DNA of 40,420 bases. Origin: Alphaproteobacteria bacterium (GTDB lineage: Bacteria; Pseudomonadota; Alphaproteobacteria; Micropepsales; Micropepsaceae). The notes beneath the pieces were generated by a model. The model made no database searches and was not told the DNA's origin. It was given only the letters and a program-made list of their open reading frames with translations. Each line of letters begins with the position of its first letter. Positions within the stretch are counted from its first letter, which is position 1. The translations under genes and the position numbers were made by a program. Positions 11,236 to 33,559 of the stretch are shown here, one piece after another. The DNA lies in NCBI GenBank assembly GCA_947474645.1, contig CANJJD010000024.1, positions 1 through 40,420 on the forward strand, written 5' to 3'.

Positions 11236-11970
11236 TCACCACCTCAGGATCAGTTTGCCGCCGCTGAAACTATAGGATTTCAGGCGGCTGAGAAATGCCA
11301 TCCCCAGCAGGGACGATCCCATCCGCGCGCTGTTGACGGACATGCGGACACGGGAAAGCCGGACGGCGCCCACAACCAGTTCGTCGGCCACGATGCTGGC
11401 GCCATGGCCGATGCCGTTGGCCGAACCGAAGGGCTTGTCGAAGGTCAGGTCTTCCAGCTTCAGGCCGATGCGGCGGGCATCTTCCGGATCGAGCACGATG
11501 TCGGTGGCGCCGGTATCAATCAGGAACTGGATCTTCACGCCGTTGACCGTGCCATAGACATGGTAATGACCGTCTTCGCCCTCCGACACGGTCATCTCCC
11601 GCGCCCCAGTCTGGATGGCGTAGCTGGGAATCATCGCGCCGCGCAGCCGCGTTGCCAGGTCCATCAGCTCGTTCTGGAAGACAAAGCCCAGGATCAGCAC
11701 CGCGCCCAGCGCCAGCCAGAGCAGGACATTGCGCACGGTCTGCCTGACGTTGAATTGGCGCACGAACAGCAGGCTGCTGGACACCAGCACCAGGAACCCC
11801 AGGGTCTGCACCATGCCCGGATCGCCCAGCGGAGAATCGCTGCCGGGAAACCAGCGGTCCAGCAGGAAGATGGTCAGGCCCGCGGCGGCCATCACCCCGA
11901 GCCAGAGATAAAGGCCCAGACGCGGGCGCTTGCCGGGCGGCGGCGTAGGCCCGCCCCACGGGCTGGACAT
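11236..11970 (-). CDS. Membrane-anchored retropepsin-like aspartic protease (TIGR02281-type, clan AA)
   Basis: This 244-residue protein has three likely N-terminal membrane segments (around residues 18-36, 52-68 and 80-97), followed by a retroviral-protease-like domain. Its catalytic motif is FLIDTGATDIVL, and a flap and second conserved block (SSLLGMAFLSRLKSY) come near the C-terminus. The DTGA motif is the hallmark of aspartic proteases acting as homodimers, and the domain should face the periplasm. The ATG at 11970 overlaps the stop of the acyl-CoA dehydrogenase gene by one base (TGATG), which fixes the start despite open frame upstream. The physiological substrate of this widespread alphaproteobacterial family is unknown to me. 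Confidence 0.85.
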   Translation of the reverse strand: MSSPWGGPTPPPGKRPRLGLYLWLGVMAAAGLTIFLLDRWFPGSDSPLGDPGMVQTLGFLVLVSSSLLFVRQFNVRQTVRNVLLWLALGAVLILGFVFQNELMDLATRLRGAMIPSYAIQTGAREMTVSEGEDGHYHVYGTVNGVKIQFLIDTGATDIVLDPEDARRIGLKLEDLTFDKPFGSANGIGHGASIVADELVVGAVRLSRVRMSVNSARMGSSLLGMAFLSRLKSYSFSGGKLILRW

Positions 11971-23845: not shown

Positions 23846-23922
23846 GCAGTTGTAGCTCAGTTGGTTAGAGCGCCGGATTGTGGATCCGGAGGTCGGTGGT
23901 TCAAGCCCACCCAACTGTACCA
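23846..23922 (+). tRNA. tRNA-His (anticodon GTG), lacking G-1, with U72 and A73
   Basis: This is a 77-base cloverleaf. The acceptor GCAGTTG pairs with CAACTGT, making a G1·U72 pair. The discriminator is A73 (23919) and CCA is encoded. The D-arm is GCTC/GAGC, the anticodon stem CCGGA/TCCGG with loop TTGTGGA, and the T-arm GGTGG-TTCAAGC-CCACC. The base before position 1 is T, so the near-universal G-1 paired to C73 is absent. This form is known from a subgroup of Alphaproteobacteria including Caulobacter, whose HisRS reads the anticodon, A73 and U72 instead. Confidence 0.95.
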
Positions 23923-24018
23923 TTTTTCCGACATTGCCCGTTTCGCGCTTGCCATCCATTGGGTCGCGCTGGGCGCGCGACCCGTCCTCGCTGCGCTCGG
24001 ACCCACCCAACTGTACCA
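23906..24018 (+). repeat. Direct repeat of the tRNA-His 3' end with an enclosed hairpin
   Basis: The 17 bases cccacccaactgtacca form the end of tRNA-His (23906-23922) and recur exactly at 24002-24018, 96 bases downstream. The 79-base spacer holds a perfect 9-bp GC stem (gggtcgcgc at 23961-23969 and gcgcgaccc at 23975-23983) without a T-tract. Such a repeat is what integration into a tRNA leaves (attL/attR), but the spacer is far too short for a functional island. It could be a scar, a decayed second tRNA, or a small tRNA-associated repeat. Confidence 0.7.
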
Positions 24019-24081
24019 ATTTCTTCCGGAACCAATTTCGCCAACCGCATGTTCCCTTCCGGCAAAACCGGAAAAACACGC

Positions 24082-24273
24082 ATGCGCAAACTGCTGTTGA
24101 TCGGCCTGGGCCTCTGCGCCCTGGGTGCGATGTGGAGGGTCGAGGAGGAAGAGGACGGCGTGGTCGTTGCCATGTCGCCCTTCCTGGCGGCCCTGGCCAT
24201 CGAAACGGGTATCTTTCTTCTTCGCCGTCACCAAGGCTCCCTATTGGGCCTGGTGGGACCGCGCCGGGATTAA
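24082..24273 (+). CDS. Small hydrophobic protein of unknown function (63 residues)
   Basis: ATG at 24082 to TAA at 24273. The product starts MRKLLLIGLGLCALGAM (signal-like or first helix), has an acidic patch (WRVEEEEDG), then a second hydrophobic segment (VVVAMSPFLAALAIETGIFLL) and a basic tail. It could be a two-span inner-membrane protein. The ribosome site is weak (only GGA about 10 bases upstream). It is followed 4 bases later by another small gene. I do not recognise it, and it may not be translated. Confidence 0.45.
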   Translation: MRKLLLIGLGLCALGAMWRVEEEEDGVVVAMSPFLAALAIETGIFLLRRHQGSLLGLVGPRRD

Positions 24274-24277
24274 TCTC

Positions 24278-24472
24278 ATGAGCAGCATCAAAAATCCCGA
24301 AAACGAAGCCGAAGATCCGGCGCCCATGCCGCCGCGCCAGTACAGCAAGATGGCGCCGCTGCCCGACGCGCCGCCGGGCCTGGAGCAGGACAGCCACGGC
24401 AATCCCATTCCTTTGTCGCAGCGCACCAAGGAAAACCAGGAAAAGGCGATCACCGGCCGCAAGGACGGCTAG
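24278..24472 (+). CDS. Small polar, probably disordered protein of unknown function (64 residues)
   Basis: ATG at 24278 to TAG at 24472. The product is rich in Pro, Glu, Asp, Lys and Gln (PENEAEDPAPMPPRQYSKMA, LPDAPPGLEQDSHGNPIPLS) and has no signal or membrane segment, so it should be cytoplasmic and largely unstructured. It lies 4 bases after the preceding small gene and 53 bases before the NHL gene, which has its own strong ribosome site. Codon use resembles the neighbours, with G/C in most third positions, which supports coding. No family is recognised. Confidence 0.5.
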   Translation: MSSIKNPENEAEDPAPMPPRQYSKMAPLPDAPPGLEQDSHGNPIPLSQRTKENQEKAITGRKDG

Positions 24473-24525
24473 CGACTCGCTCCCCCAGCGCCCTTCCGGT
24501 AAGAAGGCACAAAAAGGGGAATGGG

Positions 24526-25968
24526 ATGCGCAAGATTGTGATTGCACTGGCCGTGATGCTGGCTTCGGGCGCGGCGCTGGCCGCCGACGCGGTCAAAAAA
24601 GACCAGACCATTCTCGAACGGCTCTATGCCAATACCGGCGTCTACAACAAATCAGCTTCGGCCACGACGCCGGGCTTTGTCTCCGATCCCGGCTGGCCCG
24701 CGCCCTTGCCGCATAGCTGGCTGCTGGGCCAGGTCGGCGGGCTCTATGTGGACCGCCACGATCACATCTGGGTCTATAACCGCCCGCGCACCATGACCAC
24801 CGACGAAGCGGCGCTGGAAACGCGCGGCGGAAGCGGCGGCAAGAACGGGCAGGGGTTCGATCGTCCCCATGGCGCCATCGCCGACTGCTGCAACGCCGCG
24901 CCTTCGGTGCTGGAGTTCGACACCGCCGGCAGGCTGCTGCGCAGTTGGGGCGGGCCGGCCGATCCGGGCTGGCTGGAAAGCCATTGCAAGGCGGCGGACG
25001 GCTGCATCTGGCCCAACAGCGAGCATGGCATTTATGTGGACCATAACGACAATGTCTGGATCGCGGGCAATGGCGGCAAGCCGGTGGACCCGGCTTCGGC
25101 CTGGACCACCCACAGGGAAGGCGCCGACGGCTTTGTCCTGAAGTTCGACCGCGACGGCAACTTCAAGATGCGCATCGGCGGCACACCGACGGCGCCGGCC
25201 AGCAACGACACCAAAGGCGGCATTAACGGCACGCCGCTGCTGTATTTGCCGGCCGACATGGTGGTGGACCCCAAGACCAACCGGCTTTATATCGCCGACG
25301 GTTACGGCAATCGCCGCATCCTGATCGTGGACGCCGATAGCGGAAAATATGTCGGGCATTTCGGCGCCTATGGCGGCAATCCGGTGGACGATGCCGCGGC
25401 CGCGGCGGCGGGACGCTGGCTGCCGGAGGCGGCGAAGGGCAACAGGAAGCCCGCTTTCTTCCGCAACCCGGTCCACTGCGTCAAGCTGGCCGATGACGGC
25501 AAGCTCTATGTCTGCGACCGCGGCAATGACCGCATCCAGGTGTTCGACAGCGCCAGCCCCGAGCTGGGCAAGCCGTGCAGCAATCCGGATGGTATGGCCG
25601 GCAAGTGCGGCTTTGTCGCCGAGCGCGGCATCAGCGCCGGTACCGAAACCATTCCCGTCATGCCGGGTACTTCGGTGTCGCTGAACTTCTCCAAGGACAA
25701 GGGGCAGAGCTGCCTTTATGTCGGCGACAATTCCAACATGACCATCTATCTGCTCAACCGCGCCAACCTGCAGGAACTGGGACGGCTGGGCCGTTCGGGC
25801 CGCGATGCCGGCCAGTTCCACTGGCTGCATCAGGTCAGTCTGGACTCCAAAGGCAACATCTATACGGCGGAAGTGGATAGCGGAAAGCGCATCCAGAAAT
25901 TCGTGCGCTATGGCGCGATGGGCTGCAGCGGCACCGGGTCCGAAACAGTCGGGGGCGTGGCGAAGTGA
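24526..25968 (+). CDS. Secreted cysteine-rich NHL-repeat beta-propeller protein A
   Basis: This 480-residue protein has a Sec signal (MRKIVIALAVMLASGAALA) and repeated NHL blades: GGLYVDRHDHIWVYNR, HGIYVDHNDNVWIAG, PADMVVDPKTNRLYIADGYG, VHCVKLADDGKLYVCDRGND, and LHQVSLDSKGNIYTAEVDSG. Ten cysteines occur in the mature part (DCC, SHC, DGC, VHC, YVC, KPC, GKC, QSC, GCSG), which suggests disulfide bonding in the periplasm. NHL propellers are binding scaffolds or lyase/hydrolase-like enzymes, and no catalytic set is recognised. A strong AAGGGGAA site precedes the ATG. It overlaps the next paralogue by 4 bases (GTGA). Confidence 0.8.
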   Translation: MRKIVIALAVMLASGAALAADAVKKDQTILERLYANTGVYNKSASATTPGFVSDPGWPAPLPHSWLLGQVGGLYVDRHDHIWVYNRPRTMTTDEAALETRGGSGGKNGQGFDRPHGAIADCCNAAPSVLEFDTAGRLLRSWGGPADPGWLESHCKAADGCIWPNSEHGIYVDHNDNVWIAGNGGKPVDPASAWTTHREGADGFVLKFDRDGNFKMRIGGTPTAPASNDTKGGINGTPLLYLPADMVVDPKTNRLYIADGYGNRRILIVDADSGKYVGHFGAYGGNPVDDAAAAAAGRWLPEAAKGNRKPAFFRNPVHCVKLADDGKLYVCDRGNDRIQVFDSASPELGKPCSNPDGMAGKCGFVAERGISAGTETIPVMPGTSVSLNFSKDKGQSCLYVGDNSNMTIYLLNRANLQELGRLGRSGRDAGQFHWLHQVSLDSKGNIYTAEVDSGKRIQKFVRYGAMGCSGTGSETVGGVAK

Positions 25969-27404
25969 GGCGCGGGCGATTGGCAATGCTGTTGCCGGTT
26001 TTGGCCTTGCTGGCCGTGCCGGTGCTGGCGCAGGACACCGGAGCCATTGCCAAGCGCCTTGTGCAACAGAGCGGCGTGCACCACCGCATTGGCCACACGC
26101 CGGATTTCGTGGTCGATCCGTCCTGGCCGCAGGAACTGCCGCAACATTGGCTGCTGGGCCAGATCGGCGGGGTGTTCGTAGACCGCCACGATCACATCTG
26201 GGTGACGCAGAACCCGCGCACGCTGACCAATGAGGAAACCGGCCTGGAGGCAGCGGTGCCGGGCTCCGCCGTGAGCGGCCTTGGTTTTGCGCGCGCCAAC
26301 GGACCCATCTCGGATTGCTGCCGGGCGGCGCCTTCGGTCCTGGAATTCGATGCGAACGGCAAGTTGCTCCAGGCCTGGGGCGGCGCCGCCGATCCGGGCT
26401 GGCTGGAAAAACATTGCCGCAAGGAAGACGGCTGCATATGGCCCAGCAGCGAACACGGCATCTATGTCGACGACAAGGACAATGTTTGGCTCGGCGGCAG
26501 CAATCCGGGGCGCGCCCCGGCGGACCAGACGGCATGGACCACCAACCGCGAAGGTCCGGACGGTTTTGTCCTGAAGTTCGACCGCCAGGGCAATTTCAAG
26601 CTGCGTATCGGCGCGCCGGCCAAGGGTGCGTCCAGCAATGACGCCAATGGTGGCCTCAACGGAACGCCGCAACTGTTTCGCGCGGCCGACATGGTCGTGG
26701 ATCCGGCAACGAACCGGCTTTATATCGCCGACGGATACGGAAACAGGCGCATCGTGATCGTGGACGCCGATAGCGGCAAGTATCTGGGCCATTTCGGCGC
26801 CTATGGAAACAGCCCGGTTGACGAAAAAGCGGCGGCGGCGGCCGGCACATGGCTGCAGGACGCCGCGAAGGGAAACCGCAAGCCGGCTTTCTTCCGCACG
26901 CCGGTCCACTGCGTGAAGATCGCGGATGACGGCAAGATCTATGTCTGCGACCGCGGCAATGACCGCATCCAGGTGTTCGACAAGAACGATCCGGCGCTGG
27001 GCAAGCCCTGCAGCAATCCGGACGGTGCGGCGGGCCGCTGCGGGTTCGTGGCAGAGCAGTGGATCAGCCCGAAGACCGAAACCATGCCTGTTCTGCCCGG
27101 TACGGCCGTGGCGGTCGGATTCTCGCGCGACAAGGCGCAGAGCTGCCTCTATGTCGGCGACAATACCAACATGACAATCTACGTCCTCAATCGAAAGACC
27201 TTGGGCGAAGTGGGCAGGCTGGGCCGCAGCGGCAAGATGGCGGGCCAATTCCAATGGCTGCACCAGCTCAGCGTGGACAGCAAAGGCAACATCTATACCG
27301 GTGAAGTGGATAGCGGAAAGCGCGTCCAGAAATTCGTGCGCTATGGCGCGGCGGGCTGCAGCGGCACCGGTTCAGACCAGGTCGGCGGCGTCGTGGCGAA
27401 ATAG
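25965..27404 (+). CDS. Secreted cysteine-rich NHL-repeat beta-propeller protein B (tandem paralogue)
   Basis: This 479-residue paralogue of the preceding gene has its own signal peptide (AMLLPVLALLAVPVLAQ). All ten cysteine positions are kept (DCC, KHC, DGC, VHC, YVC, KPC, GRC, QSC, GCSG), as are the blade motifs GGVFVDRHDHIWVTQNP, ADGYGNRRIVIVDADSGKY and CDRGNDRIQVFDKND. The N-terminal region before the first blade is the most divergent part. Translation starts with a GTG that overlaps the stop of the first gene. The last 100 bases of both genes are almost identical, so the duplication is recent or maintained by gene conversion. The pair may form a heterodimer or act on related ligands. Confidence 0.8.
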   Translation: MRRGRLAMLLPVLALLAVPVLAQDTGAIAKRLVQQSGVHHRIGHTPDFVVDPSWPQELPQHWLLGQIGGVFVDRHDHIWVTQNPRTLTNEETGLEAAVPGSAVSGLGFARANGPISDCCRAAPSVLEFDANGKLLQAWGGAADPGWLEKHCRKEDGCIWPSSEHGIYVDDKDNVWLGGSNPGRAPADQTAWTTNREGPDGFVLKFDRQGNFKLRIGAPAKGASSNDANGGLNGTPQLFRAADMVVDPATNRLYIADGYGNRRIVIVDADSGKYLGHFGAYGNSPVDEKAAAAAGTWLQDAAKGNRKPAFFRTPVHCVKIADDGKIYVCDRGNDRIQVFDKNDPALGKPCSNPDGAAGRCGFVAEQWISPKTETMPVLPGTAVAVGFSRDKAQSCLYVGDNTNMTIYVLNRKTLGEVGRLGRSGKMAGQFQWLHQLSVDSKGNIYTGEVDSGKRVQKFVRYGAAGCSGTGSDQVGGVVAK

Positions 27405-27420
27405 CGCTGGATTTCCGGCG

Positions 27421-28632
27421 TCATTTGCGCGGCGCGACCAATTTCGTCACCCGGCCGGTGCTGGTATCGCCGACAAAGATGTTGCCGCTGGCGTCAAAGG
27501 CGAAATAGGCCGCTTCGATGAATTGGCCATGGCCGATGCCCATGCCATTGCCCACCGCGCCGATCACCTTGCCGCTGCGATCCAGCTTCAGCACCTGGCC
27601 ATCCTGTCCCGTCGCCATCCAGGGATTGCCGTCGGCATCAAAGCCCAAGGTGCTGGACAAGTTGCGCGTCAGGATGGTGCGCAGGAACTTGCCCTCGGCA
27701 TTGTAGACCTGGATGCGATACTGCTCCCGGTCGCCGATCCAGACATCGCCGGTCTTGGGATCGACCGCCAGGCCATGCACCTGGTCGAACTTGCCCTGGC
27801 CGGCTTCGTTGCCGAACCATTGGCCGATGAATTTGCCGTTGCGGTCCAGGCGCAGCACCCGCGCCGCGCCCATCAGATTGGTGGGGTCGTCGGAATCCAC
27901 GTCGCGCGGGCTCTCATTGCCATGGCCCTGGCCGATATAGATGTCACCGTTCGGGGCAAAGGCGATGGCGATGGGTTGCCACAGATAGCGCTGGCCCTTG
28001 GCCTCATCCCAGTCGCCGCGATGGCCCTTGACGCCGAAGGTTTGCAGCAGCTTTCCGTCGGGGCTGATTTTCTGCACCGTCGCGCCATTGATGTCGCAGA
28101 TCCAGGCATTGCCTTCGGCATCCACCGCCATGCCATGCGGCTTGTCCTGATGGCCGATCACATCCTCGCCGACCGTCAGGATCAATTTGTAGTTGCGATC
28201 AAACTTGAAAAGCTGGGGATGGCCCGGCGCCTTGCGCTGATAGACCCAGATATTGCCTTTGGCATCGATACCGACGGACGGCGGGCCGCCATAGCCGGGC
28301 GGCAGGTGAATGGGATAGGCGAAGCTGTAGCCCATGGTCTGTTTCCACTGCACCCGGTCCAAGGTCAGCCGATTGGGGCCGAAACGATTCTGGCACAGGG
28401 TCGAGCCGGTGCAGCGAAAGCTGGTGAAGGTGTCGTCACCCGCCACATGCGGATGCACGGTGATGCGGCCTTCTTCGTCCACGCTCGTATGGCCGGCGGG
28501 ATCGGCGGACGAGGGCTGCAGGAACCAGGCCGGCGAGCCGTTTTCGGCCGGGCCTTCGCGCGGTGGCGTGGTTGCGGCCACCGCCGCTGTCGTGCCCAGC
28601 GCCAGCAGGGCGGCGCACGCAAACTGTCTCAT
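27421..28632 (-). CDS. Secreted NHL-repeat protein (six-bladed propeller, peptidyl-alpha-hydroxyglycine lyase-like)
   Basis: This 403-residue protein has a Sec signal (MRQFACAALLALGTTAAVA). Its NHL blades include PPSVGIDAKGNIWVYQR, KPHGMAVDAEGNAWICD, PIAIAFAPNGDIYIGQGHGN, VHGLAVDPKTGDVWIGDREQ and YFAFDASGNIFVGDTSTGRV. The blade style (HG.AVD..GN.W..D) resembles the lyase domain of peptidylglycine amidating enzymes and related bacterial six-bladed propellers, though activity is not assured. It is more distant from the two cysteine-rich paralogues, with only three cysteines after the signal, but lies convergent with them 16 bases away. A periplasmic role is expected. Confidence 0.78.
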   Translation of the reverse strand: MRQFACAALLALGTTAAVAATTPPREGPAENGSPAWFLQPSSADPAGHTSVDEEGRITVHPHVAGDDTFTSFRCTGSTLCQNRFGPNRLTLDRVQWKQTMGYSFAYPIHLPPGYGGPPSVGIDAKGNIWVYQRKAPGHPQLFKFDRNYKLILTVGEDVIGHQDKPHGMAVDAEGNAWICDINGATVQKISPDGKLLQTFGVKGHRGDWDEAKGQRYLWQPIAIAFAPNGDIYIGQGHGNESPRDVDSDDPTNLMGAARVLRLDRNGKFIGQWFGNEAGQGKFDQVHGLAVDPKTGDVWIGDREQYRIQVYNAEGKFLRTILTRNLSSTLGFDADGNPWMATGQDGQVLKLDRSGKVIGAVGNGMGIGHGQFIEAAYFAFDASGNIFVGDTSTGRVTKLVAPRK

Positions 28633-28681
28633 GATGGTTCCGCCCGTGTTTTCCCTGATCCTAGGGCGCGGGCGGCGGAGG

Positions 28682-29323
28682 TTAAAGGGCGGAGGTGAAC
28701 GCCGCCTGGGTCTTGGCCTTGACCTCGTCCAGGGTCACGCCGGGCGCCAGCTCGATCAGCTTCAGGCCGCGTCTGCCCCGTTCCAGGGTGAAGACGCACA
28801 GATCGCTGATGATCATGTCCACGCATTCGGTGCCGGTCAAAGGCAGGGTGCAGGCTTTGAGGATCTTGCTCTCGCCCGCCTTGTTGGTGTGTTCCATCAC
28901 CACCACGATCTTCTTGACGCCGGCCACCAGGTCCATGGCGCCGCCCATGCCCTTGACCATCTTGCCGGGGATCATCCAGTTGGCGATGGCGCCGTCTTCC
29001 GACACTTCCATGGCGCCCAGCACCGACAGATCAATATGGCCGCCGCGGATCATGCCGAAGCTGTCGGCGGATGAGAAATAGCTGGTGGAGGGCAATTCGG
29101 TGATGGTCTGCTTGCCGGCATTGATCAGGTCGGGATCTTCCTCGCCCGGATAGGGAAAGGGGCCCATGCCCAGCATGCCGTTCTCGCTTTGCAGCGTGAC
29201 CTTCAAGCCGTCGGGAATGTAGTTGGCCACCAGGGTCGGGATGCCGATGCCCAGGTTCACATAGAAGCCGTCTTTCAATTCGCGCGCGGCGCGGGCGGCG
29301 ATATCTTCGCGAGACCAGGCCAT
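28682..29323 (-). CDS. 3-oxoacid CoA-transferase, beta subunit (ScoB/AtoA family)
   Basis: This 213-residue beta subunit of a family I CoA-transferase has the [15 protein letters not shown] segment and the catalytic glutamate in [10 protein letters not shown], followed by [15 protein letters not shown] and the [20 protein letters not shown] block typical of succinyl-CoA:3-ketoacid transferases. With the alpha subunit it moves CoA from succinyl-CoA to acetoacetate or a related 3-oxoacid, feeding ketone bodies or fatty-acid breakdown products into the TCA cycle. Its ATG overlaps the alpha-subunit stop by one base (TGATG). Exact substrate preference is not readable. Confidence 0.92.
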
Positions 29324-30045
29324 CAGACGGCTCCCATGGTGGGACGCGGGCGCGTGGTGACACGCTCGATCGGCTTCTTGTAGTCGCGGCCCTGCAAAAT
29401 GCGCTGCACGAAAATCCCCGGCGTGTGGATGTTGCCCGGATCGAGCTGGCCCGGCTCCACCAGTTCTTCCACTTCGGCGATGGTGACCTTGCCGGCCGTG
29501 GCCATCACCGGATTGAAATTGCGCGCGGTCTTGCGATAGACGAGGTTGCCTTCGGTGTCGCCCTTCCATGCCTTGACGATGGAAAGATCGGCCTTCAGCC
29601 AGCGCTCGCGCACATAGGTCAGGCCATCGAACACTTCGGTGGGCTTGCCGTCCGCCACCACCGTGCCGACGCCGGTGCGGGTATAGAAGGCGGGAATGCC
29701 GGCGCCGCCGGCGCGGATGCGTTCCGCCAGGGTGCCTTGGGGGTTCAATTCCAGTTCGAGCTTGCCGGTGAGATAGAGTTCCTCGAACAGCTTGTTCTCG
29801 CCGACATAGGAGGAAATCATCTTCTTGATCTGGCCGTTGTTCAGCAGCACCCACAGGCCCAGCCCGTCGGCGCCGCAATTGTTGGCGATGACGGTGAGGT
29901 TCTTGACCCCATCTTCCTTCAGGGCGGTGATCAGGTTTTCGGCGTTGCCCGACAGGCCGAAGCCGCCGGACATCACGGTCATGCCGTCAAAGGTCAGGCC
30001 TTTGAGGGCCGCAGCCGCATCGGGATAGACTTTGCTTTCGGCCAC
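29323..30045 (-). CDS. 3-oxoacid CoA-transferase, alpha subunit (ScoA/AtoD family)
   Basis: This 240-residue alpha subunit contains the CoA-binding [13 protein letters not shown] segment, [45 protein letters not shown] and [20 protein letters not shown], all standard for this family. The start is the GTG at 30045 (VAESKVYPD), which follows a GAAGGAAA ribosome site; an ATG 13 codons earlier would add a basic stretch absent from relatives. It forms a two-gene unit with the beta subunit and is divergent from hisS across 180 bases. Confidence 0.92.
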
Positions 30046-30225
30046 GGATGCTTTCCTTCGTCTTTTGTTTAGTTCGCATTGCAGCATGGGCTCACGCAAG
30101 GGACAAAGCGGCGCGCTTGTAAGTGCTTGATTTGTAATATCTTGTGACGGTTCCTTGCCGTCCTGCAGGGGGGCCGGTACAACCCCCGCCAGCCCAAGAT
30201 TCCAGCAGATTCCCAAGAGTTTTCG
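30046..30225. other. Divergent intergenic region between CoA-transferase and hisS, with two leader hairpins
   Basis: These 180 bases must hold promoters for both directions, but I see no convincing -35/-10 pair. Two short hairpins lie in the hisS leader: gacgg/ccgtc (30146-30150 and 30158-30162, loop 7) and ggggg/ccccc (30169-30173 and 30183-30187, loop 9). No His-rich leader peptide is evident. Confidence 0.3.
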
Positions 30226-31704
30226 ATGTCCTCGCCCAAACCCGTCAAACCAAAGGCCAGGCTGCCGCGCGGTTTCCGCGACCGGGGCGCCGCCGAGATC
30301 ATGGCCGAGCAGAAGATGCTGGCCACCATCCGCAGCGTTTACGAAAGCTATGGCTTCGATCCGCTGGAAACGCCGGCCTTCGAATATACCGACGCGCTGG
30401 GCAAGTTCCTCCCCGATGTGGACCGCCCCAATGAAGGCGTGTTCTCGCTCAAGGACGATGACGAACAATGGATGAGCCTGCGCTATGACCTGACGGCGCC
30501 GCTGGCCCGTCATGTCGCGGCCAATTTCCAGCACTTGGCCAAGCCGTTCCGCCGCTATCAGGTGGGCAGCGTGTGGCGCAACGAAAAGCCCGGTCCCGGC
30601 CGCTACCGCGAATTCACCCAGTTCGACGCCGACACGGTGGGCAGCGCCAGCGCTTCCGCCGATGCCGAGCTGCTGATGATGCTGTCCGACACGCTGGAGG
30701 CGCTGGGCCTGAAGCGCGGCGACTACATCGTCAAGCTGAACAATCGCAAGCTGCTGGACGGCGTGCTGGAAGCCAGCGGCGTGGCGCTGGAAGACCGCGT
30801 CCGGCGCGGCATCGTGTTGCGCGCCATCGACAAGATCGACCGCCTGGGCGTGGACGGCGTTTCCGCGCTGCTAGGCGAGGGCCGCAAGGATGACTCCGGC
30901 GACTTCACCAAGGGCGCAGGTCTGAGCGCCGATCAGGCGCATCGCATATTGGCCTTCGTGGCGCCGGATGCGGCGGACGAAGATGCGCATCTGCGCCAGA
31001 TCGGCACCTTGGTGGGATCGAGCGCCATCGGTGCCGCGGGCCTGAACGAGTTGGAACAGATCGTGCGCCTGTTGCAGGCCTGCGGCTATGGCCCCGACCG
31101 GGTGCTGTTCGACACCGGCGTGGTGCGCGGGCTGGATTATTACACCGGCGCGGTGTTCGAGGCGCAGCTTACTTTCCCCATCAAGAATGAAGACGGCGAG
31201 GAAGTCGTGTTCGGCTCGGTGGCGGGCGGCGGGCGTTACGACGACCTGGTGGCGCGTTTCACCGGCCAGCAGGTTCCGGCCACCGGCGTGTCCATCGGCG
31301 TGTCGCGCCTGATGAGCGCGCTGGCCTCGCGCGGCCTGATGACTGCTGCGGTTTCGCCGCTGGTGGTGGTGACGGTGTTCGACAAGGCCGAAGCGGCGGC
31401 CAGTTTCGCCATGGTGCAGGAATTGCGCGCGGCCGGCATCCGCGCCGAGGCCTATGTCGGCAACGGCAAGATGGGCGACCAGTTCAAATATGCCGACAAG
31501 CGCGGCGCCGCCATCGCGGTGATCGAGGGCGGTGACGAGCGCGCCCGGGGCGAAGTCACCTTGAAGGACCTGGCGCTGGGCACGGAACTGGCCAAGTCGG
31601 TGGAAAGCCGCGCCGAGTGGGTGGCCAACCGCGAAGCCCAGAAGAGCGTTCCGCGCAGCGGCCTGGTGGCGGAAGTAAAGGCGATGCTGAAAGGCCGAGC
31701 CTGA
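30226..31704 (+). CDS. hisS: Histidine-tRNA ligase (divergent alphaproteobacterial type)
   Basis: This 492-residue class II synthetase charges tRNA-His. Motif 1 lies in the first 60 residues. The [11 protein letters not shown] block (85-95) and motif 2 ([20 protein letters not shown], about 117-136) follow. The histidine-binding motifs are [12 protein letters not shown] and [10 protein letters not shown], and a C-terminal anticodon-binding domain completes the enzyme ([15 protein letters not shown] onward). LRYDLT and GRYREF match eukaryotic or archaeal-like HisRS rather than the E. coli LRPEGT and GRYRQF, as expected for the divergent enzyme paired with a tRNA-His lacking G-1, which is also in this window. 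The stop overlaps hisZ by one base. Confidence 0.96.
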
Positions 31705-32831
31705 TGCCCGCCTTTCCCTATTACGACCCCAAGGCGCTCGAAGCCCTGAACGGCCAGGCGGTATCGCTGCTGGGCCTGTTCGCGTCACGCGGTTATGCGC
31801 GCGAGGAACCGGCGGTGCTGCAGCCGGCCGAGATTTTCCTGGACCGCTCCGGCGAGGAAATCCGCCGCCGCACCTTCACCCTGATGGACCCGTCAGGGCG
31901 CGAATTGTGCCTGCGCCCCGACCTCACCATTCCCATCTGCCGCGAAGCGGTGCAGTCCAAACGCAGCTTCCCGGCGCGCATCGCCTATAACGGGCCGGTG
32001 TTCCGCCACCAGCCGGGCGAGCCGCATCGCCCCACCCAGTTTTTCCAGGCGGGTGTGGAGCTGCTGGGGCTGGAAGACCGCGCCGCCGGTGAAACCGAAA
32101 TTCTCTCCTTGGCGGTGGATGCGCTGAAGGTCTGTGGCGTGTCGGATTTTTCCATCCGCATGGGCGATCTGGCCCTGTTCAACGCCTTGGTGGACGCGCT
32201 GGCATTGCCGGTGGGCTGGCGCTCGCGCCTCAAGCGTCACTTCTGGCGCGCCGGTTATGTCGAAAGCCTGCTCTATTGGCTGGGCCATGGCGACGGCAAG
32301 GCCAAGCTGCCCGGCACCCGTGAAGAGATTGAAATCCTGCTGGACGCGCGCGCCGACGCGCCCCTGGCGGGCCGCACCCGTGAAGAGATCATCGCCCGCG
32401 CCCTGGAACGCGCGGCGGAAGCGGAGAATTTACGGCTGGACGCCAAGCAGGCTGATGCTATCGCCCAGCTCCTCGACATCTCGGGGCCTGCGGAAGAAGC
32501 CTTGGCCAAGGTGCGCGCCTTGCTGGCCACCGCCGGCATCAACCTGGACGCGCAGCTCGCCGCCATGGATGCACGCCTGGCCACACTCAAATCGCTGAAC
32601 ATCGATCCGGCGCGGGTGCAGTTCACCGCCCATTTCGGCCGCAACATGGAATATTACACCGGCCTGGTGTTCGAGTTCTGGTCCCGCGACAAGGAAGGCC
32701 CAGTGCAGATCGCCGGCGGCGGCCGCTATGACTCCATGATGGAAATGCTGGGCGCCAAAAAGCCGGTCAGCGCCATCGGCTGCGCCATCCGCACCGAACG
32801 CGTGCTGGCCGCCAAGCGGGGAGGCAAGTGA
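31704..32831 (+). CDS. hisZ: ATP phosphoribosyltransferase regulatory subunit HisZ
   Basis: This 375-residue HisRS paralogue lacks the anticodon-binding domain. It keeps the class II fold ([40 protein letters not shown]), but the tRNA-synthetase function is not expected because the motif 2 arginine-rich loop is altered. HisZ binds the short form of HisG and is needed for its activity and histidine feedback. The TGATG overlap with hisS and a further TGATG into hisG point to one transcript. The C-terminal [15 protein letters not shown] resembles the histidine-binding motif, consistent with sensing histidine. Confidence 0.93.
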
Positions 32832-33559
32832 TGCTGACGCTTGCCATTCCCTCCAAGGGCCGCCTGAAGGACAATTGCAACGCCTGGTTCGCCGAACGCG
32901 GCGTGACCATGGAACAGACCGCCGGCGCCCGCGGGTATCGCGCCAGCTTTGCCGGCATGCCCGAGGTTGACGTCATGCTGCTGTCGGCGGGCGAGATCGC
33001 GTCTGCGCTGCTGACGGGCGACATTCATCTGGGTATCACCGGCGAGGATTTGCTGCGCGAGGAAGCGCCGGAACTGACCGGCCGCATGCATCTGATCAAA
33101 CCTTTGGGCTTCGGCTTCGCCGATGTGGTGGTGGCAGTACCGGGTTCCTGGATCGACGTTACCAGCATGGCCGACCTGGACGATGTCTGTGCCGCCTATG
33201 CGAATGCGCACAAGCGGCGCCTGCGGGTTGCCACCAAATACGCCCAGCTCACCCGCAGCTTCTTCGCCCAGGCCCGAATTTCCGATTACCGCATCGTGCC
33301 CAGCGCCGGCGCCACCGAAGGCGCGCCCGCGGCGGGCACTGCCGAAGCCATCGTGGACATCACCACCACGGGCGCGACCTTGCGCGACAATGGGCTGAAG
33401 ATCCTGGACGATGGCGTGATCCTGAAAAGCCAGGCGCAGCTTGCCGCCTCGCTCACCGCCGACTGGAGCGGCGATGCGCGCAAGACGTGTGAGACGCTGC
33501 TCTCCAAGCTCGATCCGGCCAACCCGCTCTTTGCGGCGTTGAAGGCACAATTGCCGTAA
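32831..33559 (+). CDS. hisG: ATP phosphoribosyltransferase catalytic subunit, short form
   Basis: This 242-residue HisG catalyses the first step of histidine synthesis, joining PRPP to ATP. The N-terminal [14 protein letters not shown] is typical, as is the PRPP-binding loop near [16 protein letters not shown]. The long-form regulatory domain (about 70 extra residues) is absent, in keeping with a HisZ-dependent enzyme. The ATG at 32831 is preferred to the GTG at 32828 because GAGG lies six bases before it. It overlaps the hisZ stop by one base, and its own stop abuts the opposite protease gene. Confidence 0.95.

Follow-up and report, generated by a model that had tools for sequence, protein, structure and literature searches.

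A tRNA-His gene without G-1 and a divergent histidyl-tRNA synthetase in a lineage near Micropepsaceae, with relatives of the pair in another phylum

How is histidine specified in a bacterium whose tRNA-His gene lacks the extra guanine (G-1) by which this tRNA is recognized almost everywhere? The question is raised by a stretch of 40,420 nucleotides (the window; GenBank assembly GCA_947474645.1, contig CANJJD010000024.1, Alphaproteobacteria), which carries both a tRNA-His gene and hisS, the gene for histidyl-tRNA synthetase (HisRS). Histidine identity via G-1 is near-universal, and the route by which one bacterial group departed from it is disputed between gene transfer from eukaryotes and convergence (PMC3937112, PMC5370408; the papers cited here and below were available in excerpt). 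The tRNA-His and HisRS of the window are taken here, with a probability of about 0.93, as the two halves of a G-1-independent histidine identity system in a lineage near Micropepsaceae.

tRNA-His and HisRS genes of the window

The genes and the positions of interest are as follows.

23846-23922, forward strand: tRNA-His(GTG) with encoded CCA (ARAGORN, direct reading)
23880-23882, forward strand: anticodon GTG (ARAGORN, direct reading)
23845, forward strand: base -1, a T, no encoded G-1 (direct reading)
23918 and 23919, forward strand: U72 and A73 (direct reading), identity elements in Caulobacter according to the excerpt of PMC9976931
30226-31704, forward strand: hisS, histidyl-tRNA synthetase of the G-1-independent type, 492 amino acids (open reading frame [ORF], NCBIfam, Pfam, HisRS tree)
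30577-30615, forward strand: motif-2 loop of HisRS, residues 118-130 (motif-2 alignment)

By direct reading, the 5′ flank CCGTGT is followed by G1, and the acceptor stem GCAGTTG/CAACTGT gives a G.U pair at 1-72, then A73 and CCA. A sequence-only reading, made earlier by a model without database searches, had reported T at -1, G1.U72 and A73, and these bases were confirmed by ARAGORN and direct reading. Among 40 distinct tRNAs read from the same genome, G1/U72/A73 occurs only in tRNA-His and in one tRNA with a CAT anticodon; the remaining tRNAs have a Watson-Crick 1-72 pair, except one Met tRNA with C1/A72. The combination in tRNA-His exceeds chance expectation.

The hisS gene lies 6.3 kb downstream of tRNA-His. 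Its product scored 392 bits against the NCBIfam hisS model (cut-off 286.75) and contains the Pfam catalytic (PF13393) and anticodon-binding domains. The closest HisRSs (up to 97% identity) were from alphaproteobacterial metagenome-assembled genomes, and, among named cultured species, Rhizomicrobium electricum (Micropepsaceae) had the most similar enzyme (69%). Alignment of motif 2 placed Lys121 and Gly123 at the sites of E. coli Arg116 and Gln118, standard residues which they would replace in the loop; the role of Arg116 in E. coli is presumed here. Motif-2 sites are given below in E. coli numbering, sites 116 and 118 being residues 121 and 123 of the window's enzyme. According to the excerpt of PMC3937112, the Gln of motif 2 (numbered 123 there) contacts G-1:C73, and Gly at this position is diagnostic.

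The assembly comprises 2.64 Mb in 54 contigs and is 99.61% complete. It encodes one HisRS, the other two PF13393 matches being hisZ. Searching with RF00005 returned 41 matches, of which only the tRNA-His of the window was named as such by ARAGORN; a second, standard tRNA-His, by which the sequence-only reading would have been refuted, was not among them.

The tRNA-His most likely starts at G1, without G-1, and HisRS most likely reads the GUG anticodon, A73 and U72. This proposal follows Caulobacter crescentus, in which A73, U72 and the anticodon are the identity elements of HisRS (PMC9976931) and the pair is orthogonal to that of E. coli in vivo (PMC3875453). By the same analogy, we infer that G-1 would be dispensable in the organism of the window.

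Distribution of tRNA and enzyme types

A tree of 73 HisRS rows was constructed by a careful IQ-TREE analysis (G, L and f numbers below are our handles for genomes, loci and families). The 31 A73-type rows, 22 with a tRNA-His read as U72/A73 and nine labelled by enzyme kinship only, are split from the remaining rows by a single branch (bootstrap 97, Shimodaira-Hasegawa-like approximate likelihood ratio test [SH-aLRT] 91), and the window's enzyme is separated from that of E. coli. The tRNA bases, the HisRS phylogeny and Gly123 in motif 2 together support the earlier placement of the organism in the G-1-independent subgroup.

All 31 A73-type rows have Lys at site 116 and none has Gln118; site 118 is Gly in the 20 alphaproteobacterial rows, Asp in the ten from Bacteroidota and Lys in 'bacterium AUK090'. 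Outside these 31, Lys116 was found in one of 42 rows, L105, with Gln retained and C73. Given this distribution over 31 and 42 rows, the combination of Lys116 and a missing Gln118 marks the type better in this set. Gly123 alone was rejected as a marker, being shared by three rows with a C73 tRNA (L262, L266, L271). The motifs LRYDLT (residues 85-90) and GRYREF (residues 125-130), on which the sequence-only reading had relied, are indeed present in the window's HisRS; as markers they were rejected, both occurring in 6/31 A73-type and 4/28 C73 rows.

A class-level sample of 387 alphaproteobacterial genomes was searched by tRNA pattern and by HisRS identity. Matches to the T72/A73 pattern that fell in variable arms of other tRNAs, or arose by chance, were discarded on visual inspection, and a wider pattern was run after the first class pattern had missed tRNAs without T32. 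T72/A73 tRNA-His was found by pattern in 50 genomes; of the 42 that were fetched, ARAGORN called 38 as tRNA-His and left four uncalled (G147 and G328, truncated by contig ends, G123 and G338). In 49 of the 50, HisRS identity to the window's enzyme was 47% or more, G335 being the exception. A HisRS of the A73 clade was found in 59 of the 387 genomes, 57 of them through identity of at least 47% (11 of these are also rows of the tree), the other two, G175 and G251, through their position in the tree. In 55 of these 59, tRNA-His has U72/A73; in G175 and G251 it was read by eye adjoining hisS, in a form not called by ARAGORN. Among the matches listed, which leave out a second one in each of G170 and G366, none of the 59 has a C73 tRNA-His. 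Genome G202 shows U72/G73 at a contig end, where G73 was taken as an assembly fault. By pattern, tRNA-His was not found in G265, G039, G356, G387 and G388, and the best match of model R1, the only match typed, was another tRNA in each.

In G175 (L354, 9066-9139) and G251 (L355, reverse strand), both of family f83, tRNA-His stands directly before hisS and keeps G1.U72, A73 and the anticodon; its T-loop reads AGCGTAA and its D-loop lacks GG. Odd T- or D-loops occur in some further tRNAs (Phe, Thr) of these genomes. Genome G076 (L360, L361) carries two full-length A73-type HisRS genes, with identities of 57% and 56% to that of the window.

Outside the class, the HisRS scan gave matches at 27-43% identity in records that include Bacteroidetes, Kryptoniota and Saccharibacteria. 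The tRNA-His of G390 (Kryptoniota record), G389 (Bacteroidetes record) and G395 (AUK090) has G1.U72 and A73, with C or T at -1; that of G391, G392 and G396 (Saccharibacteria/Patescibacteria-type) has G-1 and C73. Kryptoniota is ranked by NCBI as a phylum of the FCB group. We take the phylum of G390 to be of the Bacteroidota type, partly from the closeness of the G408 HisRS to chain 6nhi, whose organism is likewise our assumption. In that phylum the U72-A73 pattern occurred in 7/395 genomes including G390, all called tRNA-His by ARAGORN and with T or C at -1; the count is a lower bound, as G388 has the enzyme yet is unmatched by the pattern. When 40 genomes were searched with the G390 HisRS, 11 with an A73-type enzyme scored 260-995 bits and 29 controls at most 229. 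These 11 are eight with a U72/A73 tRNA, AUK090, and G387 and G388, in which tRNA-His was not found. Against the window's HisRS they scored 259-360 bits, versus 91-222 for 19 control loci, and tRNA-His, read in seven of the controls, had G-1 and C73 in each. Each of the nine non-alphaproteobacterial genomes with a U72/A73 tRNA-His carries a HisRS of the alphaproteobacterial enzyme's clade. Across genomes, tRNA type and enzyme type covary, and the U72/A73 tRNA and HisRS pair extends beyond alphaproteobacteria.

In the Bacteroidota-type loci L370, L371, L372 and L373 (the last a weak match), the gene after hisS encodes an aromatic amino acid lyase of the HutH type, a neighbour from histidine metabolism.

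Several observations count against G-1 independence in the window's lineage. A73 is merely a minor identity element in Caulobacter according to the excerpt of PMC5370408. Genes for tRNA-Trp, tRNA-Ala-TGC, tRNA-Gln-TTG and tRNA-Ile-GAT were not seen among the 40 distinct tRNAs read from the assembly; its tRNA set is therefore incomplete, and a second tRNA-His might have been missed. G335 belongs to the family of the window's genome and is rated 100% complete; it has an A73-type tRNA-His, yet PF13393 matched neither a HisRS nor a HisZ gene in it, probably because of an assembly gap. Of 41 A73-type alphaproteobacterial genes (G202 and G335 included), seven have G at -1 in the DNA, 33 T and one C. 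Base -1 is G in 25/26 C73 tRNA-His genes read, the exception being a C in a Harrisonbacteria record (L238/L105). A Thg1-type enzyme could moreover add G-1 post-transcriptionally, so that histidine identity would be functionally standard, and eukaryotes do add G-1 to an A73-bearing tRNA-His (PMC6471195). Such an addition is hardly to be expected here: Thg1 (PF04446) had no match in the window's genome in a search covering it and 14 control genomes, Bacteroidota not included, among which Methanosarcina alone matched, and in motif 2 the window's HisRS has lost the residues of the standard enzyme.

Among known systems, the window's pair is most readily compared with the alphaproteobacterial G-1-less pair ('RRCH clade', PMC3937112; Caulobacter crescentus), with which it shares the absence of encoded G-1, U72, A73, Gly123, the HisRS clade and the lack of a detected Thg1. 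It differs in its lineage, which lies outside the groups named in the excerpt of PMC3937112, and in the position of tRNA-His 6.3 kb upstream of hisS. The standard E. coli pair shares the anticodon and the enzyme family (PF13393 with an anticodon-binding domain), but is set apart by G-1, C73, Arg116 plus Gln118, a separate HisRS branch and its orthogonality to the Caulobacter pair in vivo (PMC3875453); neither an encoded G-1 nor C73 nor Arg116 plus Gln118 is present in the window. A73, LRYDLT and GRYREF are held in common with the eukaryotic pair, which however needs Thg1 and whose HisRS does not branch as sister of the alphaproteobacterial clade.

Enzyme phylogeny and origin of the pair

The trait has been placed in alphaproteobacteria, probably with a single bacterial origin, and a eukaryotic source is disputed (PMC3937112, PMC9976931, PMC3875453, PMC5370408, PMC8305728, PMC6471195, as far as the excerpts go). 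The A73 clade contains AUK090, two Bacteroidota groups, G552 (from the phylum of G390) and the 20 alphaproteobacterial rows, which G552 adjoins with support 100/99. After removal of the motif-2 columns and of five rows (human, AUK090, L270 and two archaeal), the clade of 30 was supported at 100/99 and G552 plus alphaproteobacteria at 100/100. The tRNA state changes once on the HisRS tree (50 scored rows: 22 U72/A73 and 28 C73), the state of E. coli being entered as we presume it to be. Since the pair occurs in Bacteroidota-type genomes and in AUK090 within one HisRS clade, it has probably spread laterally.

A separate constraint, with the ten Bacteroidota rows as a clade apart from alphaproteobacteria, gave p = 0.0022 in the approximately unbiased test (p-AU) for a grouping chosen after seeing the tree, and was rejected. 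The Harrisonbacteria record L105 carries a tRNA-His (11363-11435) just downstream of hisS, with C73 and C at -1. It may be an intermediate state, as its HisRS, which has both Lys116 and Gln118, branches as sister to the A73 clade.

With slightly better than even confidence, we regard the pair as a bacterial module that neither arose in alphaproteobacteria nor came from eukaryotes. It would have reached the ancestor of the alphaproteobacterial group laterally, or both groups would have taken it from an unsampled donor, tRNA and enzyme probably together; the identity switch would have happened once in the lineage of the HisRS clade and been handed on rather than re-evolved. Acquisition of the alphaproteobacterial HisRS from a eukaryote, as stated in the excerpt of PMC3937112, would agree with the A73 common to both and with the LRYDLT and GRYREF motifs of the human enzyme, which the sequence-only reading had called eukaryote-like. 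That origin now appears very unlikely: a clade of the 20 alphaproteobacterial rows plus human was rejected (p-AU 9.9e-5, human being the single eukaryote in the tree and on a long branch), the Bacteroidota relatives branch beside the alphaproteobacterial enzymes, and a survey cited in the excerpt of PMC5370408 gives no support to such a transfer.

Whether the tRNA accompanied the enzyme was assessed from tRNA identity outside positions 1, 72 and 73 and from gene linkage, the latter counted in A73-type genomes only. Seven distinct Bacteroidota A73 tRNAs had a mean identity of 0.69-0.76 to alphaproteobacterial A73 tRNAs, 0.68-0.73 to alphaproteobacterial C73 tRNAs and 0.64-0.70 to C73 tRNAs of Bacteroidota; the AUK090 tRNA-His showed no preference among the groups compared. 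A38 is found in 49/52 A73 genes versus 1/24 C73 genes. At 17 of the 36 alphaproteobacterial loci with that much upstream DNA, tRNA-His lies within 10 kb upstream of hisS on the same strand, and it directly precedes hisS in five f83 genomes (G083, G316, G378, G175, G251). Short distances between the two were likewise found in AUK090 (about 0.3 kb) and in G647, G451 and G410 (about 3, 5 and 8 kb); in G390, G389, G435, G655 and G552 the two genes are on separate contigs. From the tRNA likeness, A38 and the linkage, set beside the five split cases, joint transfer of tRNA and enzyme seems likely, though weakly supported.

It is possible, but short of an even chance, that the enzyme gene alone moved between alphaproteobacteria and Bacteroidota and that the recipients' own tRNA-His then became U72/A73. 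The single change on the HisRS tree is equally compatible with this course and with joint transfer, the A73 tRNAs of Bacteroidota resemble alphaproteobacterial C73 tRNAs nearly as closely as A73 ones, and the indifferent AUK090 tRNA and the split contigs point the same way; the lower likeness to C73 tRNAs of their own phylum, the A38 common to both groups and the closeness of tRNA-His to hisS in several lineages speak for joint transfer. Contamination or misassembly might be suspected in the Bacteroidota cases, as those of the genomes with a description are metagenome assemblies, none closed among those checked, and the AUK090 contig measures only 13.8 kb. We give this little credence, given ten genomes with three HisRS lineages about 40-43% identical to the window's, one gene common to L097-L100 after hisS (4/4), a HutH-type lyase after hisS in G647, G451, G410 and, weakly, G552, and, in G390, contigs of 189 kb for the tRNA and 101 kb for hisS.

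The pair is already known in alphaproteobacteria; new, as far as searched, are its relatives in a second phylum and the history of the enzyme as a single clade. A literature search found no report of an A73-type pair in Bacteroidota, subscription papers being mostly outside its reach. The occurrence of the pair in a second phylum provides an outgroup for the switch, by which its origin becomes directly testable, and suggests that a synthetase, although essential, can cross phyla with its tRNA as an orthogonal unit. Divergent orthogonal HisRS/tRNA-His pairs, which differ at the key site of motif 2 (Gly, Asp or Lys), may be useful for code-expansion work.

Repeat and neighbouring genes in the window

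Two further genes follow hisS, the three being successive on one strand.

31617-32831, forward strand: hisZ-type ORF (ATP phosphoribosyltransferase regulatory subunit, to which no part in tRNA function is assigned), adjoining hisS, probable ATG at 31704
32828-33559, forward strand: hisG, next downstream

The 3′ end of the tRNA including CCA (23906-23926) is repeated 96 bases downstream at 24002-24022, with 20/21 bases identical. The downstream copy is a candidate attachment-site scar, and no second copy was present at any of the 12 related loci compared. Between tRNA-His and hisS, positions 24526-27404 encode two successive NHL-repeat proteins, which look like a local duplication because both match one common stretch in L043 and L050.

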